Shown here: one piece after another, positions 25,619 through 32,060 of the stretch | How positions within the stretch are numbered: the stretch's first letter is position 1 | Layout of the letters: the number at the start of each line of letters is the position of its first letter | NCBI RefSeq assembly: GCF_036250675.1 | Contig: NZ_CP109592.1 | Span: forward strand, 2,604,001-2,668,000 | Direction: 5' to 3' | Source of the DNA: Streptomyces sp. NBC_01689 | GTDB lineage: Bacteria; Actinomycetota; Actinomycetes; Streptomycetales; Streptomycetaceae | DNA length: 64,000 nucleotides | Program-made: the position numbers and the translations under genes | The notes under the pieces: model-generated | Database searches by the model: none | What the model was told of the DNA's origin: nothing | What the model saw: the letters and a program-made list of their open reading frames with translations, nothing else

Positions 25619-26590
25619 GTGAAAGTCGCCGTTCTCGGCGCCGGTGCGATCGGCGCCTATGTCGGGGCCGCGCTGCACCGCGCAGGCGCCGATGTGCATC
25701 TCATCGCCCGTGGACCGCATCTCGCGGCCATGAGGCGGCACGGAGTCCAGGTCCACAGTCCGCGCGGCGACTTCACCGCGCGCGCCCACGCCACCGACGA
25801 CCCGGCCGAAGTCGGGCCCGTCGACTACGTCTTCCTGGGTCTGAAGGCCAACTCGTACGCGGCGTGCGGGCCGCTGATCGAGCCGCTGCTGCACCGGGAC
25901 ACGGCGGTGGTCGCCGCCCAGAACGGCATCCCCTGGTGGTACTTCCACCGGCACGGCGGCCCGCACGACGGCCACCGGGTGGAGAGCGTGGACCCCGACG
26001 GCGCGGTCAGCGCGGTACTCGCGCCCGAACGGGCCGTGGGATGCGTGGTGTACGCCGCGACCGAGCTGGAAGGGCCCGGGGTCGTCCGCCACCTGGAGGG
26101 CACCCGGTTCTCGATCGGCGAACCCGACCGCTCGCTCTCCCCCCGCTGCCGGACCCTCAGCGAGGCCATGCGGGCGGGCGGCCTCAAGTGCCCCGTCGAG
26201 TCCGACCTGCGCAACGACATCTGGCTGAAGCTGCTGGGCAACATCTCCTTCAACCCCATCAGCGCGCTGTCCCGGGCGACCATGCGGCAGATGTGCCTGC
26301 ACGGCGGGACCCGCAAGGTCATCGAGATCATGATGGCCGAGACACTCGCCGTCGCCCGGGCCCTCGGCTGCGAGGTCGGCGTCTCCATCGAACGCCGGCT
26401 GGCCGGCGCCGAACGCGTCGGCGACCACCGCACCTCCACCCTGCAGGACCTGGAACGCGGCAAGCCGCTCGAACTCGACGTGCTGCTCGCGGCCGTCGTG
26501 GAACTGGCGGAGATCACCGGGGTCCCGGTCCCCACCCTCCGTACCGTGCACGCACTGTCGGATCTGCTCGCATCGAGGACCGCCGCATGA
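25619..26590 (+). CDS. Ketopantoate reductase (2-dehydropantoate 2-reductase) family protein
   Basis: 323 residues from the GTG at 25619. The Rossmann loop is VAVLGAGAIGAYVGAALHRAG, the NADP side VHLIARGPHLAAM, catalytic Lys and Asn/Ser region LRNDIWLKLLGNISFNPISALS, and C-terminal helix STLQDLERGKPLELDVLL. It is the first gene of the formate dehydrogenase operon, overlapping the catalytic subunit gene (ATGA). A pantothenate role is possible, but the setting suggests reduction of another 2-keto acid. Confidence 0.88.
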   Translation: MKVAVLGAGAIGAYVGAALHRAGADVHLIARGPHLAAMRRHGVQVHSPRGDFTARAHATDDPAEVGPVDYVFLGLKANSYAACGPLIEPLLHRDTAVVAAQNGIPWWYFHRHGGPHDGHRVESVDPDGAVSAVLAPERAVGCVVYAATELEGPGVVRHLEGTRFSIGEPDRSLSPRCRTLSEAMRAGGLKCPVESDLRNDIWLKLLGNISFNPISALSRATMRQMCLHGGTRKVIEIMMAETLAVARALGCEVGVSIERRLAGAERVGDHRTSTLQDLERGKPLELDVLLAAVVELAEITGVPVPTLRTVHALSDLLASRTAA

Positions 26591-28506
26591 GGAAACGCGA
26601 ACCGAGGATCTACACACGGCTCACGCACCCGCTGGTGCGGGACAGCCGGGACGAGCCCTTCCGGCGGGCCACCTGGGACGAGGCCCTGAGCCGCGCGGCC
26701 GCCGGACTGCACGCCGCGCGCGGTGCGTTCGGCATGTTCTCCTGCGCCCGCGCCACCAACGAGATGAACTTCGTGGCCCAGAAGTTCGCGCGCGTCGTCA
26801 TGGGCACCAACAACGTCGACTCCTGCAACCGCACCTGTCACGCCCCGAGCGTCGCCGGTCTCTCCGCGGCCTTCGGCTCGGGCGGCGGGACCTCCTCCTA
26901 CGCGGAGGTGGAGGAGACCGACCTCGTGGTGATGTGGGGCTCCAACGCCCGCTTCGCGCACCCCATCTTCTTCCAGCACGTGCTGAGGGGGATCAGGAAC
27001 GGCGCCCGGATGTACGCGGTCGACCCCCGCCGCACCTCGACGGCCGAGTGGGCGGAGGGCTGGCTCGGTCTGAACGTCGGCACCGACATCCCGATGGCGC
27101 ACGCGATCGGCCGCGAGATCATCCACGCGGGTCTCGTCAACCACGCGTTCGTCCGGCGCGCGACCAGCGGCTTCGAGGAGTACGCGCGGCTCGTGGAACC
27201 CTGGACGCTCTCCCTCGCGGAGAAGGTGACCGGCGTACCGGCCGCCGCGATAAGGGAGTTGGCGCACGCCTACGCACGCGCCGAGCGCGCCCAGCTGTGC
27301 TGGACCCTCGGCATCACCGAGCACCACAACGGCACCGACAACGTCCGCGCCCTGATCAACCTGTCCCTGCTGACGGGTCACGTGGGCCGCCCCGGCTCCG
27401 GGCTGCAACCCCTGCGCGGCCAGAACAACGTGCAGGGCGGCGGCGACATGGGAGCCATCCCCAACCGGCTCCCCGGCTTCCAGGACATCCTCGACCCGGA
27501 CGCGCGCGCGAAGTTCGAGTCCGCGTGGAACACCGTCATCGAGCCGCACCACGGACTGAACCTGACCGAGATGTTCGAGGCGATGGAGGAGGGCACGCTC
27601 AAGGCGGTCTACTGCATCGGGGAGAACCCGGCGCAGTCGGAGGCCGACAGCGAGCAGGCCGTCCGGCGGCTCGGCGCCCTCGACTTCCTCGTCGTCCAGG
27701 ACATCTTCCTCACCAGGACGGCCGAACTCGCCGACGTGGTGCTGCCGGCGACCGCCGGATGGGCCGAGACGGAGGGCACCACCACCAACAGCGAGCGGCG
27801 TGTCCAGCGGGTGCGCGCGGCGGTGACCCCGCCCGGTGAGGCCCGTGAGGACATCGACATCCTCCGCGACCTCGCCGCGCGCCTCGGGCACGAGTGGAAG
27901 TACGACGACTCCGAGGCCGTCTGGGACGAACTGCGCTCCCTCTCCCCCGACCACCACGGGATGACGTACGCGCGGCTGGAGGAGGAGCAGGGCATCCAGT
28001 GGCCCTGCCCGGACCCGACCCGCCTCGAACCACCGCACCTGCACGGCCGGTTGTGGGCCGACGACCCCGCCGAACGCGGCCGGCGCGCACCCTTCGGCCT
28101 CGTCGCGCACGACCCGCCGGTGGACCTGACGGACGAGACGTACCCGATCCGTCTCACCACCGGACGGCGGCTCGACTCGTACAACACCGGTGTGCAGAGC
28201 GGCGGTTTCGCCTCACCGCTGCGGCGCGGCGAGTACGTCGAGCTGTGCCCGGAGGACGCGGAGCGCTACGGGGTCGTGGTGGGCGAGGAGGTCCAGGTCT
28301 CCTCGCGCCGCGGCAGCGTGCGGGCGCCCGTGTGGATCGACACCGCCCTGCGCCCCGGGCTCGCGTTCATGACGATGCACTTTCCCGACGACGTGGACAC
28401 CAACCGGCTGACGATCGAGGCGAACTGCCCGATCGCGGGGACGGCGGAGTTCAAGGCGTCGGCGATCCGGATCGACAAGCTGCCGGTCACGGCCGTGAGG
28501 AGCTGA
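26587..28506 (+). CDS. Formate dehydrogenase catalytic (molybdopterin) subunit lacking its N-terminal Fe4S4 domain
   Basis: 639 residues, shorter than a full FdhA/FdsA. It starts MRKREPRIYTRLTHPLVRD, which in whole FDH alpha chains directly follows the Fe4S4 domain. Cys84-His85 (RTCHAPSVAGL) is the Mo-ligand pair, Cys replacing selenocysteine. Further family blocks: VVMWGSNARFAHP, GITEHHNGTDNV, GRPGSGLQPLRGQNNVQGGGDMG, ENPAQSEAD, GRRLDSYNTGVQSGG in the molydopterin-binding C-domain. The missing cluster domain is encoded at 30335-31195. It oxidises formate to CO2 in the cytoplasm together with the fused diaphorase. Confidence 0.9.
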   Translation: MRKREPRIYTRLTHPLVRDSRDEPFRRATWDEALSRAAAGLHAARGAFGMFSCARATNEMNFVAQKFARVVMGTNNVDSCNRTCHAPSVAGLSAAFGSGGGTSSYAEVEETDLVVMWGSNARFAHPIFFQHVLRGIRNGARMYAVDPRRTSTAEWAEGWLGLNVGTDIPMAHAIGREIIHAGLVNHAFVRRATSGFEEYARLVEPWTLSLAEKVTGVPAAAIRELAHAYARAERAQLCWTLGITEHHNGTDNVRALINLSLLTGHVGRPGSGLQPLRGQNNVQGGGDMGAIPNRLPGFQDILDPDARAKFESAWNTVIEPHHGLNLTEMFEAMEEGTLKAVYCIGENPAQSEADSEQAVRRLGALDFLVVQDIFLTRTAELADVVLPATAGWAETEGTTTNSERRVQRVRAAVTPPGEAREDIDILRDLAARLGHEWKYDDSEAVWDELRSLSPDHHGMTYARLEEEQGIQWPCPDPTRLEPPHLHGRLWADDPAERGRRAPFGLVAHDPPVDLTDETYPIRLTTGRRLDSYNTGVQSGGFASPLRRGEYVELCPEDAERYGVVVGEEVQVSSRRGSVRAPVWIDTALRPGLAFMTMHFPDDVDTNRLTIEANCPIAGTAEFKASAIRIDKLPVTAVRS

Positions 28507-28514
28507 GGCGGGAC

Positions 28515-30338
28515 ATGGATCTGCACTTCGGTGACAGCAAGCCCTCGGACGAGGAACGGGCCGCCGTCGACGCGCTGCTCGGCCCTCCGGAGTCCTCGTG
28601 GGAGGGCGCCGACCGGTCCGACGCCGACCTCAGGTGGGCGCGCGGTGGCCGCGAGGCACGCGCGCGCCGGGACCTGCTGCTGCCGGGGCTGCACGCCGTC
28701 AACGACCGGGTCGGCTGGATCAGCGAGGGCGCGCTCGCCTATCTGTGCCGCCGGCTGACCGTCCCCCCGGCGGAGGCGTACGGCGTCGCGACGTTCTACG
28801 CGATGTTCTCGGTGAAGCCGCGCCCGGCGACCGTGCTGCACGTCTGCACGGACCTCGCGTGCCTGGCGGCGGGGGCACCGGAGCTGTGCGAGGGGGTCGA
28901 GTCCCGGCTCGGCCCCGGCAGCGGGGTGAGCGTGCAGCGCGGCCCGTGCCTCGGTCTGTGCGAGCGGGCCCCGGCCGCGCTCGCCATCAGGGCGGGTGAT
29001 CCGGTGCGTACCGCCGTGGCGGCGCCCGCCACCGTCGAGCGGGCCGTGCTGGCGGCGAGCGCGCCCGGGTCGGCGGCCGGGGAACCGCCCGCGGAGCGGG
29101 CCCTCCCCCAGGCCGGCGACCCCTCCCTGATCCTGCTGCGCCGCGTCGGCGTGGTCGATCCCGCGGACCTGGACGACTACCGGGCGCACGGCGGGTACAC
29201 CGCGCTGCGCCGGGCCTTCGCGCTCGGGCCCGCCGGCGTCGTCCGCGAGGTGACCGAGTCGGGCCTGGTCGGGCGGGGCGGCGCGGCCTTCCCCACCGGC
29301 CGCAAGTGGCAGGCCACGGCGTCCCGGCCGGAGACCCCGCACTATCTGGTGTGCAACGCCGACGAGTCCGAACCGGGCACCTTCAAGGACCGGGTGCTCA
29401 TGGAGGGTGACCCGTACGCGCTCGTCGAGGCGATGACGGTCGCCGGCTACGCGACCGGCGCACACCAGGGCTATCTGTACCTGCGGGGCGAGTACCCGCG
29501 CGCCCTGCGCCGCATGGAGCACGCCATCGGCCGGGCCCGTGCGCGGGGGCTGCTCGGCGACGACGTGCTCGGCCAGGGGTACGCCTTCGACATCGAGATC
29601 CGGCGCGGCGCGGGCGCGTACGTCTGCGGCGAGGAGACCGCCCTGTTCAACTCGATCGAGGGCCACCGGGGCGAGCCGCGCACCAAGCCGCCCTTCCCCG
29701 TGGAGAAGGGCCTGTTCGGCAGGCCCACCGCCGAGAACAACGTCGAGACGCTGGTGAACGTCCTGCCGGTCCTGACCATGGGCGCCGAGGCGTACGCGGC
29801 GATCGGCACCGCGGGCTCCACCGGTCCGAAGCTGTACTGCGTGTCGGGGAGCGTGGAGCGTCCCGGCGTCTGGGAACTGCCCTTCGGGGCGACGCTGCGC
29901 GAGTTGCTGGAGCGGGCGGGCGTGCGGGAGGGCCTGCGGGCGGTGCTGCTCGGCGGCGCGGCCGGCGGTTTCGTACGGCCCGACGAGCTGGACGTGCCGC
30001 TCACCTTCGAAGGCACCCGGGAGGCGGGCACGACCCTCGGCTCGGGTGTGGTCATGGCCTTCGACGACACCGTCCCCCTCCCACGTCTGCTGTTGCGGAT
30101 CGCCGCGTTCTTCCGCGACGAGTCGTGCGGGCAGTGCGTGCCCTGCCGGGTCGGGACCGTACGCCAGGAGGAGGCGCTGCACCGGATCGCCGAGCGCACC
30201 GGCGCGGCCGCGGCGCACGACGTCGCCCTGCTCAGGGAGGTCGGCCGCGCGATGCGGGACGCCTCGATCTGCGGTCTGGGGCAGACCGCGTGGAACGCCG
30301 TGGAATCCGCGATCGACCGTCTGGGGGTCTACGCATGA
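28515..30338 (+). CDS. Fused NuoE-NuoF type diaphorase subunit of formate dehydrogenase
   Basis: 607 residues. Residues about 15-190 are a thioredoxin-like [2Fe-2S] NuoE/FdsG domain with Cys111, Cys116, Cys145 and Cys149. After an Ala/Pro linker (about 190-210) comes a NuoF/FdsB domain: NADH loop GLVGRGGAAFPTGRKW, FMN region VCNADESEPGTFKDR, GAGAYVCGEETALFNSIEG, and the 4Fe-4S motif SCGQCVPCRVGT with the fourth Cys in ASICGLG. Separate genes in most bacteria. Passes electrons from formate to NAD+. Nine bases downstream of the catalytic gene; stop overlaps the next start (ATGA). Confidence 0.92.
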   Translation: MDLHFGDSKPSDEERAAVDALLGPPESSWEGADRSDADLRWARGGREARARRDLLLPGLHAVNDRVGWISEGALAYLCRRLTVPPAEAYGVATFYAMFSVKPRPATVLHVCTDLACLAAGAPELCEGVESRLGPGSGVSVQRGPCLGLCERAPAALAIRAGDPVRTAVAAPATVERAVLAASAPGSAAGEPPAERALPQAGDPSLILLRRVGVVDPADLDDYRAHGGYTALRRAFALGPAGVVREVTESGLVGRGGAAFPTGRKWQATASRPETPHYLVCNADESEPGTFKDRVLMEGDPYALVEAMTVAGYATGAHQGYLYLRGEYPRALRRMEHAIGRARARGLLGDDVLGQGYAFDIEIRRGAGAYVCGEETALFNSIEGHRGEPRTKPPFPVEKGLFGRPTAENNVETLVNVLPVLTMGAEAYAAIGTAGSTGPKLYCVSGSVERPGVWELPFGATLRELLERAGVREGLRAVLLGGAAGGFVRPDELDVPLTFEGTREAGTTLGSGVVMAFDDTVPLPRLLLRIAAFFRDESCGQCVPCRVGTVRQEEALHRIAERTGAAAAHDVALLREVGRAMRDASICGLGQTAWNAVESAIDRLGVYA

Positions 30339-31195
30339 CCGTGACACCGCTGGGGACTCCCCGCCGGCTGGTCGAGTTCACCCTCGACGGCGAACCGGTG
30401 CGGGCCCCCGAGGGATCGCCGCTTCTCGACGCCTGCCGGTCCGCGGGCAAGGACGTCCCGGCCCTGTGCCAAGGTGACACGCTGACCCCGAAGAACGCCT
30501 GCCGGATCTGTGTCGTCGAGGTCGAGGGCGCCCGCACCCTGGTCCCGGCCTGCTCGCGCGGCGCCGAGCAGGGCATGCGGGTACGGACGGACACGGAGCG
30601 CGTGCGCCACAGCCGCCGGATCGTCCTCGAACTGCTCGCCTCCTCGGTGGATCTGTCGACCACGCCCCGGGTGGCGGGGTGGATCGAGGAGTACGGGGCC
30701 GAGCCCGGCCGGTTCGGCCCCGACGCGGCCCGCGTCGACGAGGAGCCCCGGGTCGACAACACCCTGTACGTGCGCGACTACGACAAGTGCATCCTCTGCT
30801 ACAAGTGCGTGGACGCCTGTGGCGACCAGTGGCAGAACACCTTCGCGATCGCGGTCGCCGGACGCGGTTTCGACGCCCGGATCGCGGTGGAGCACGACGC
30901 CCCGCTGACCGACTCGGCCTGCGTGTACTGCGGGAACTGCATAGAGGTCTGTCCGACGGGAGCGCTCTCCTTCAGGTCGGAGTTCGACATGCGGGCGGCG
31001 GGTACCTGGGACGAGTCCGCGCAGACGGCCACGACCACGGTGTGCGCGTACTGCGGTGTGGGCTGCAACCTCACGCTGCACGTGCAGGACAATGAGATCG
31101 TCAAGGTCACCTCTCCGCACGACAACCCGGTGACCCACGGCAATCTCTGCATCAAGGGCCGTTTCGGCTACCAGCACGTACAGAACCGGGACTGA
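30335..31195 (+). CDS. Iron-sulfur subunit: the detached N-terminal third of the formate dehydrogenase alpha chain
   Basis: 286 residues. Domain 1 (about 10-85) is a [2Fe-2S] ferredoxin fold, cysteines in ALCQGDTLTPKNACRICVVEVEG and VPACSRG. Domain 2 (about 145-215) holds two 4Fe-4S motifs, KCILCYKCVDACGDQ and ACVYCGNCIEVCPTG. Domain 3 (about 230-286) is the molybdopterin-oxidoreductase Fe4S4 domain: VCAYCGVGCNLTLHV, then NLCIKGRFGYQHVQNRD at the very end. In ordinary FDH this sequence continues directly into the catalytic domain encoded at 26587. It must dock onto that protein to complete the electron path. Confidence 0.92.
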   Translation: MTVTPLGTPRRLVEFTLDGEPVRAPEGSPLLDACRSAGKDVPALCQGDTLTPKNACRICVVEVEGARTLVPACSRGAEQGMRVRTDTERVRHSRRIVLELLASSVDLSTTPRVAGWIEEYGAEPGRFGPDAARVDEEPRVDNTLYVRDYDKCILCYKCVDACGDQWQNTFAIAVAGRGFDARIAVEHDAPLTDSACVYCGNCIEVCPTGALSFRSEFDMRAAGTWDESAQTATTTVCAYCGVGCNLTLHVQDNEIVKVTSPHDNPVTHGNLCIKGRFGYQHVQNRD

Positions 31196-31202
31196 TCAGG
31201 AC

Positions 31203-32060
31203 ATGGGACGAGTCACGGAACGACGCAAGGTGATCCGCATCCGGGACGGGGCCGAGAGCACCCGCCCCGACACACTGGTCGCCGAGGAACCCCTGGAGAT
31301 CCGCCTCAACGGGAGGGCGCTCGCCATCACCATGCGCACCCCGGGCGACGACTTCGCGCTCGCGGCGGGCTTCCTGGTCAGCGAGGGGGTCCTCGGCAGG
31401 GCGGAGGAACTGCAGAGCATCGTCTACTGCGCGGGCGCGACGGCGGACGGCTCGAACACGTACAACGTCGTGGACGTACGGACGGCGCCCGGCGTCGTCA
31501 TGCCCGACATCACCCTCGAACGCAACGTCTACACGACGTCGTCCTGCGGTCTGTGCGGCAAGGCGAGCCTGGACGCGGTCCGTACGACCGCGCGCTGGAC
31601 CATCGACGACGGTGACGACGCTCCCCCGGTCCGGCTGGAGCCCGCACTCCTCGCCGTCCTCCCCGACCGGCTGCGTGCGGCGCAGCGGGTTTTCGACCGG
31701 ACCGGGGGTCTGCACGCCGCGGCGCTGTTCACGGAGGACGGCGAGCTGCTCGACGTGCGCGAGGACGTGGGCCGGCACAACGCGGTCGACAAGCTGGTCG
31801 GGCGCGCCCTTCAGGACGGGAGGCTGCCGCTCTCCCGGACCGTTCTGCTGGTGTCGGGGCGGGCCTCGTTCGAACTGGCGCAGAAGGCCGTCATGGCGGG
31901 CATCCCGGTCCTGGCGGCGGTCTCGGCCCCCTCGTCCCTCGCCGTGGACCTCGCCGCCGAGTCGGGCCTGACGCTGGTCGGATTCCTGCGCGGCGCCTCC
32001 ATGAACGTGTACGCGGGCGAGCACCGCATCGCCCTGCGGGCCGCGGCCGCCCAGGGCTGA
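31203..32060 (+). CDS. fdhD: Formate dehydrogenase accessory sulfurtransferase FdhD
   Basis: 285 residues, full length. VAEEPLEIRLNG, RTPGDDFALAAGFLVSEGV, the sulfur-carrying loop SSCGLCGKAS (C-x2-C), DVREDVGRHNAVDKLVG and LLVSGRASFELAQKAVMAGIPVLAAVSAPSSLA are all diagnostic. FdhD passes sulfur to the Mo-bis-MGD cofactor, which FDH needs for activity. It is the last gene of the operon, 7 bp after the iron-sulfur subunit. Confidence 0.96.
   Translation: MGRVTERRKVIRIRDGAESTRPDTLVAEEPLEIRLNGRALAITMRTPGDDFALAAGFLVSEGVLGRAEELQSIVYCAGATADGSNTYNVVDVRTAPGVVMPDITLERNVYTTSSCGLCGKASLDAVRTTARWTIDDGDDAPPVRLEPALLAVLPDRLRAAQRVFDRTGGLHAAALFTEDGELLDVREDVGRHNAVDKLVGRALQDGRLPLSRTVLLVSGRASFELAQKAVMAGIPVLAAVSAPSSLAVDLAAESGLTLVGFLRGASMNVYAGEHRIALRAAAAQG

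Follow-up and report, generated by a model that had tools for sequence, protein, structure and literature searches.

Two genes in place of one for the alpha chain of a predicted NAD(P)-linked formate dehydrogenase in Actinomycetota

FdsA, the alpha chain of a formate dehydrogenase (FDH), is known to be a composite of two modules: in the available part of one account, three [4Fe-4S] clusters and a [2Fe-2S] cluster lie in a HoxU-like part of 250 residues, and the rest, an FdhF-like part of 700 residues, resembles FdhF (PMC7171172). The Rhodobacter capsulatus enzyme FdsABGD (6tg9) combines a HoxU-like module, an Fe4S4 domain, a bis-molybdopterin guanine dinucleotide (bis-MGD) module and a NuoE/NuoF-type diaphorase. 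The same parts are found in a locus of Streptomyces sp. NBC_01689, which lies in the 64,000-nucleotide stretch of contig NZ_CP109592.1 analyzed here (hereafter the window). FdsA is one chain of 958 residues, whereas the locus encodes two chains in reversed order with a fused diaphorase, lacks the His-ligated cluster motif and is followed by FdhD.

The Escherichia coli enzyme FDH-H and the hydrogen-dependent CO2 reductase FdhF (7qv7, the best PDB sequence match) have catalytic domains and active-site residues in common with the catalytic protein of the window. In both, the chain itself begins with the Fe4S4 domain, whereas here this domain is carried by another protein, and our catalytic half matches these chains only from about residue 60. 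NuoG also differs from the split FDH in holding Fe4S4 and a molybdopterin-like domain on one chain. To our knowledge, the family is generally built with the cluster domain on the catalytic chain. A precedent of a divided molybdopterin chain is the separate C-terminal subunit of Methanothermobacter wolfeii, as described in the available part of PMC7171172. What is separated there is the C-terminus, whereas in the split FDH it is the cluster domain next to the metal. We take the M. wolfeii subunit to be FwdD of formylmethanofuran dehydrogenase.

We found no description of a split FDH alpha chain with Fe4S4 on a second chain in the literature searched, a partial library, and there is none in the available portions of PMC7171172, PMC8808070, PMC4498112, PMC5024524, PMC7325909, PMC9686372 and PMC6895022; FdhA1 and FdhA2 in the accessible part of the last are two loci of one Thermacetogenium enzyme. 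New, as far as searched, are the cut about 55 residues inside the FdhF module, the placement of the cluster domain with the electron-transfer chain, and the occurrence of this arrangement throughout a clade. The locus very probably encodes a cytoplasmic Mo- or W-dependent NAD(P)-linked FDH, the alpha chain of which is encoded as two proteins.

Position of the break in the alpha chain

Pfam analysis of the catalytic protein gave PF00384 (227.8 bits) and PF01568 (92.9 bits) and no match to PF04879, the Fe4S4 domain. Fer2_4, Fer4-type and PF04879 matches were all on the separate Fe-S protein, and PF04879 occurred on this protein only within the gene set. TIGR01591, the equivalog model of the Fdh alpha chain, was divided likewise: its positions 1-52 correspond to Fe-S residues 235-286, and positions 52-672 to catalytic residues 10-629. 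Aligned with FdsA of R. capsulatus (6tg9_A), the Fe-S protein spans 15-307 and the catalytic protein 308-931, the halves abutting at 307/308. The initial annotation of the window, made from the sequence, had described an alpha chain split and permuted in gene order, with its [2Fe-2S], 4Fe-4S and Fe4S4 part in a gene after the diaphorase, and both the domain content and these complementary alignments bear this out. It had also read the two ends as one junction; the abutment on FdsA supports this, but about nine residues precede the first aligned residue of the catalytic protein, and at the extreme ends the junction is not exact to the residue.

The predicted model of the catalytic protein aligned with 6tg9_A over 619 residues (301-937), and with FDH-H the alignment began only at residue 56-57. 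In the window, the frame ahead of the catalytic start was read over 200 residues and has no cluster motif. Set against FdsA, the halves lie back to back, and the catalytic protein is without a cluster domain of its own, the presence of which the initial annotation had named as a ground for refutation. Models of HoxU and of the N-terminal part of NuoG both match the Fe-S protein, that of HoxU (NF005745) only up to residue 214 of 286, before Fe4S4. By sequence alignment, the chain is broken some 55 residues into the FdhF module, off the known HoxU/FdhF border, so that the Mo-proximal cluster would have to come in trans. The domain content thus agrees with the earlier proposal that another chain provides the cluster domain.

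These positions bear on whether the locus is an ordinary FdsA-type FDH with HoxU-like and FdhF-like modules that were never fused. The two-part composition of FdsA described above and a stand-alone HoxU-like chain of 247 residues in the PDB (9mqx_A) are in keeping with such an origin, but the break is off the border between the modules, and Fe4S4, a part of the FdhF module, is on the HoxU-like chain. Moreover, a sister clade (f18, see below) and the other chosen relatives keep Fe4S4 on the catalytic chain. With the cut placed within the FdhF module, we rejected this explanation as improbable.

Conservation and descent of the divided form

A species genome scan with the catalytic protein gave 465 stretches encoding a relative, of which the best 80 were kept and are called Streptomyces-type (79 titled Streptomyces and one 'Actinobacteria bacterium OV320'). 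Two separate draws covered 296 genomes of the phylum Actinomycetota and 296 genomes of the class. The final count contained 112 split loci, namely the 80 Streptomyces-type loci, 20 split places of the phylum and 12 class-level places, and 40 fused relatives were chosen from the phylum list for comparison. The designations f84, f18 and f90 are family labels assigned by the tool.

Three core genes are held by 100 of the 112 split loci, and the order catalytic, diaphorase, Fe-S on one strand is kept in 100/100. Five genes as in the window, in the same order, were present in 71/80 Streptomyces-type loci; L040 had no match to the reductase, and the eight loci without the later genes are pieces of 3.2-9.2 kb at contig ends. 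In the phylum draw, a close catalytic match was found in 33/296 genomes (61-100% identity, E 3e-245 or better) and a close Fe-S match in 34/296 (61-100% identity), with both halves in 31. All 31 have them on one strand, catalytic first, then a gap of 1.7-2.2 kb, then Fe-S; in the five genomes with a single close half, the contig ends before the other half would come. In genome G127, a close Fe-S half lies at the end of a contig, and the catalytic match is weak (4.9e-83). The Fe4S4 pattern was found upstream in the catalytic frame in 40/40 chosen fused relatives and in 0/111 split loci (19 deep loci, L138 and L154-L171; 80 Streptomyces-type; 11 f84; L239), L172 being excluded, as its contig stops short of the catalytic gene. 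The initial annotation had excluded a frameshift, and we likewise reject an artefact of assembly, frameshift or mis-annotation, in favor of which nothing was found and the probability of which is negligible given the same arrangement in 100/100 loci from many separate assemblies and a 1.8 kb gene, that of the diaphorase, between the halves.

Close Fe-S proteins, among the best 120 matches per list, came from Streptomyces, Nonomuraea, Herbidospora, Streptosporangium, Sphaerisporangium, Thermopolyspora and Actinomadura, and the matches listed also included Ilumatobacter, Acidimicrobiales and many metagenome sequences. Most of the named matches to the Fe-S half carry the designation '2Fe-2S iron-sulfur cluster-binding protein'. 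One protein match is named after the metagenome-assembled genome 'Candidatus Velamenicoccus archaeovorus'. Of the 296 class genomes, 18 had a catalytic gene with an E value no higher than 1e-180 (six of the genus, that of the window included, 11 f84 and one f90, the last in a TGA form; see below), so the distribution within the class is patchy. Within Actinomycetota, the split state has been kept in two classes or more. Relatives of the Fe-S protein were also found in 347 plasmid records, all below 60% identity; of the 30 listed, 13 coincide with an annotated formate dehydrogenase gene, and the other 17 coincide with no gene or are in records without annotation.

In an unrooted tree of 67 catalytic rows, the 27 split rows were on one side of one branch with 100/100 support, and their neighbors were ten f18 rows, in which the Fe4S4 domain is kept on the catalytic chain. 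These f18 FDHs (L173-L182) are the nearest catalytic relatives outside the split clade; FdhD was matched in 9/10, and neither NuoEF nor a separate Fe-S gene was found in the stretches fetched. With Fe4S4 on the catalytic chain in the other relatives sampled, the tree is most simply read as one displacement from a fused ancestor, although it is unrooted.

The sixteen cluster cysteines (Table 1) and Lys274 were invariant in 39 Fe-S proteins, the others being 57-89% identical to that of the window. Likewise, C/U84, H85 and R277 were invariant in 42 catalytic chains, 14 fused ones among them (U scored with C); we take the roles of Cys/Sec84, His85 and R277 to be those known from FDH-H. The ratio of nonsynonymous to synonymous substitution rates (dN/dS) was 0.14-0.18 for both halves against four Streptomyces loci, and 0.34 (catalytic) and 0.19 (Fe-S) against L228, an f84 locus. 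Both halves are, by these sequence comparisons, under purifying selection.

Alternatively, the catalytic protein might need no proximal cluster, Fe4S4 on the other chain being a relic or serving a different partner. Two YdeP-type proteins of the genome are molybdopterin chains in which no Fe4S4 motif was detected, and the interaction of the halves is itself a prediction from sequence, which leaves this idea some room. We nevertheless give it little credence: the four cysteines of the Fe4S4 domain and Lys274 are invariant in 39/39 Fe-S proteins, the Fe-S gene has the low dN/dS given above against the four Streptomyces loci, and the genes stay together in 100/100 loci holding all three.

The proposed enzyme and the residue at codon 84

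In the proposed two-chain enzyme, the catalytic protein would bind bis-MGD, with the metal held by Cys84. The Fe-S protein, a HoxU-like ferredoxin chain with the Mo-proximal [4Fe-4S] domain, would dock on the catalytic protein and complete the entrance of the active site. By the template of FdsA, electrons would pass from formate to Mo, to the [4Fe-4S] cluster provided in trans, through two [4Fe-4S] clusters and the [2Fe-2S] cluster, and then by way of the NuoE-NuoF cluster and FMN to NAD. The first of these transfers would take place between two different proteins. We infer that the two chains form one complex, and the same holds for its cofactor occupancy, substrate, direction and electron acceptor.

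Several results weigh against this assignment. The TIGR01591 cut-off of 666.25 was reached by neither protein (catalytic 609.1, Fe-S 54.4), as expected if each is half an alpha chain. The predicted model of the Fe-S protein alone was poor, with a mean predicted local distance difference test (pLDDT) score of 57.5 and values below 50 at residues 128-212, 238-242 and 271-286. By pattern, the His-ligated cluster motif of FdsA was found in 0/35 split rows scanned, which would take one cluster out of the electron chain relative to R. capsulatus. In the same scan of 16 fused rows, L196 has the motif and the match in L207 is a ferredoxin motif; since the motif is absent from 15/16 fused rows, its absence does not set the split enzymes apart. 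Finally, a tree of the Fe4S4 domain (75 rows by 61 columns) did not resolve the donor, for which an f18-like chain was considered. Mean identity of the window's domain was 41.1% with the ten f18 rows (best 49.1%, mean alignment score 130.2) and 40.4% with 30 other fused rows (best 55.9%, mean alignment score 114.2), with no clear preference for f18 over the other fused rows.

In the window, codon 84 specifies Cys. It was TGC or TGT in 80/80 Streptomyces-type and 11/11 f84 loci, and TGA in 19/19 readable deep split loci (18 and L239; L171 was unreadable) and in 10/10 f18 loci. The TGA of the deep relatives, at the metal-ligand position, probably encodes selenocysteine. Gly91 was encoded by GGT in 46/46 TGA genes (19 deep split, 10 f18 and 17 other fused) versus 14/104 Cys genes, and among split genes in 19/19 versus 11/91. 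A GGT pattern at Gly91 is expected if the mRNA there belongs to a selenocysteine insertion sequence (SECIS). The folding energy of a 50-base segment starting at codon 84, scored against single-base, not dinucleotide, shuffles, gave no distinction between TGA and Cys genes, the mean z being -0.63 for deep TGA genes (19), -0.14 for f18 TGA genes (10), -0.26 for sampled Streptomyces-type genes (16) and -0.55 for f84 genes (11). Rfam at gathering thresholds over eight loci gave one tRNA only. SelB was found in 16/17 deep genomes, in keeping with selenocysteine FDHs, and in 5/14 Cys-form genomes, the window's genome being counted among the five with a match of 237.3 bits against a cut-off of 242.25. 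On this evidence, the Cys form may descend from an enzyme with selenocysteine. Ordinary gene calling would read the TGA of the probable selenocysteine forms as a stop, which leaves an annotation gap.

A PanE-like reductase gene lies upstream in 79/80 Streptomyces-type and 11/11 f84 loci; among loci with the core genes, it was present in 71/72 Streptomyces-type, 10/10 f84 and 0/18 deep loci. In matched loci, the reductase goes with the Cys form and was not matched beside TGA forms. FdhD follows the Fe-S gene in 72/72 Streptomyces-type, 9/10 f84 and 1/18 deep loci with the core genes, and is upstream instead in 4/18 deep loci.

The coupled reductase hints at a wider pathway, and the complex could be real but act on a substrate other than formate or work mainly in CO2 reduction. 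This is unlikely, though less so than the alternatives considered above, because the best PDB sequence matches are the CO2 reductase FdhF and formate dehydrogenases, the catalytic residues are conserved, FdhD is in the operon and the relatives probably use selenocysteine. We therefore retain the NAD(P)-linked FDH with a divided alpha chain. An even chance may be given to a broader proposal, that of an actinobacterial clade with a two-chain active site in which the [4Fe-4S] domain, adjacent to the molybdopterin in the single-chain enzymes of the family, has shifted to the HoxU-like chain; bis-MGD could then enter the catalytic chain while its entrance is open, and the cluster chain could cap it later, which would make cofactor and cluster insertion separable. 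Such an enzyme would be a stable natural separation of the active site from the first electron relay, and leaving out or mutating one of the proteins could test the role of the proximal cluster in cofactor insertion, stability and electron transfer.

Gene layout and other FDH-like genes of the genome

The query locus occupies positions 25619 to 32060 of the window, in a genome of 9.96 Mb on two contigs, and consists of five genes (Table 1). The reductase and catalytic genes, and the diaphorase and Fe-S genes, overlap by 4 bases (ATGA), and the remaining two gaps are shorter than 10 bases, so that the five genes read as one operon. The NuoE/NuoF-type diaphorase has PF01257, PF01512, PF10531 and PF10589 in one gene, and the fused query was also matched unbroken in the deep split loci (L138 is cut by a contig end). 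The pairing of the two [4Fe-4S] ligand sets in Table 1 presumably follows the standard ferredoxin rule.

Table 1. Features of the split FDH locus, in window coordinates
Feature	Position	Strand	Remarks
PanE/ApbA-like gene (2-dehydropantoate 2-reductase family)	25619..26590	+	PF02558/PF08546; NF005089 464.8 bits; GTG start assumed
Catalytic half of FDH alpha, 639 aa	26587..28506	+	PF00384 and PF01568, without Fe4S4 domain
Codon 84 TGT (Cys), predicted Mo/W ligand	26836..26838	+	TGA (probably Sec) in deep relatives
Arg277, arginine of the PLRGQNN motif	27415..27417	+	Invariant in 42 aligned chains
Fused NuoE-NuoF diaphorase, 607 aa	28515..30338	+	2Fe-2S thioredoxin-like, FMN/NAD domain, SLBB, NADH_4Fe-4S
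Fe-S half of FDH alpha, 286 aa	30335..31195	+	HoxU/NuoG-like module and Molybdop_Fe4S4 domain
[2Fe-2S] domain Fer2_4, ligands C45, C56, C59, C73	30365..30595	+	PF13510, residues 11-87
Two [4Fe-4S] clusters: C152/155/158 + C206; C196/199/202 + C162	30776..30967	+	Fer4-type matches, residues 146-211
Molybdop_Fe4S4 domain: C237, C240, C244, C272, K274	31028..31186	+	PF04879 75.2 bits, residues 232-284
FdhD sulfurtransferase (accessory)	31203..32060	+	NF001943 404.7 bits, cut-off 269

The initial annotation had named a second complete FDH alpha gene using the subunits of this operon as grounds for abandoning the split; no second complete NAD-type FDH alpha gene was found among the PF00384 and PF04879 places of the genome. 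The other PF00384 places are an FDH-N type alpha gene with a TGA inside, a NasA-CysJ-like fusion, a PhsA/ArrA-like gene, NuoG (1365 bits to NF005895) and the two YdeP-type genes, none of which is a second NAD-type FDH alpha. NuoG thus has a gene of its own, and both split proteins stayed below the cut-off of 470.05 of the NuoG model TIGR01973 (Fe-S half 134.1, catalytic half 107.2). The FDH-N type gene (G000:C1:9188798-9190702, minus strand; loci L007, L010, L240) matches NF041513 with one TGA inside, probably a selenocysteine codon, and a SelB-like gene lies near it (C1:9182865-9183899). On these grounds, the genome may make selenoproteins, yet the split FDH has Cys. At L241 (G000:C1:3094009-3095478), a frame of 1465 residues combines two parts, one resembling assimilatory nitrate reductase and the other the flavoprotein CysJ.

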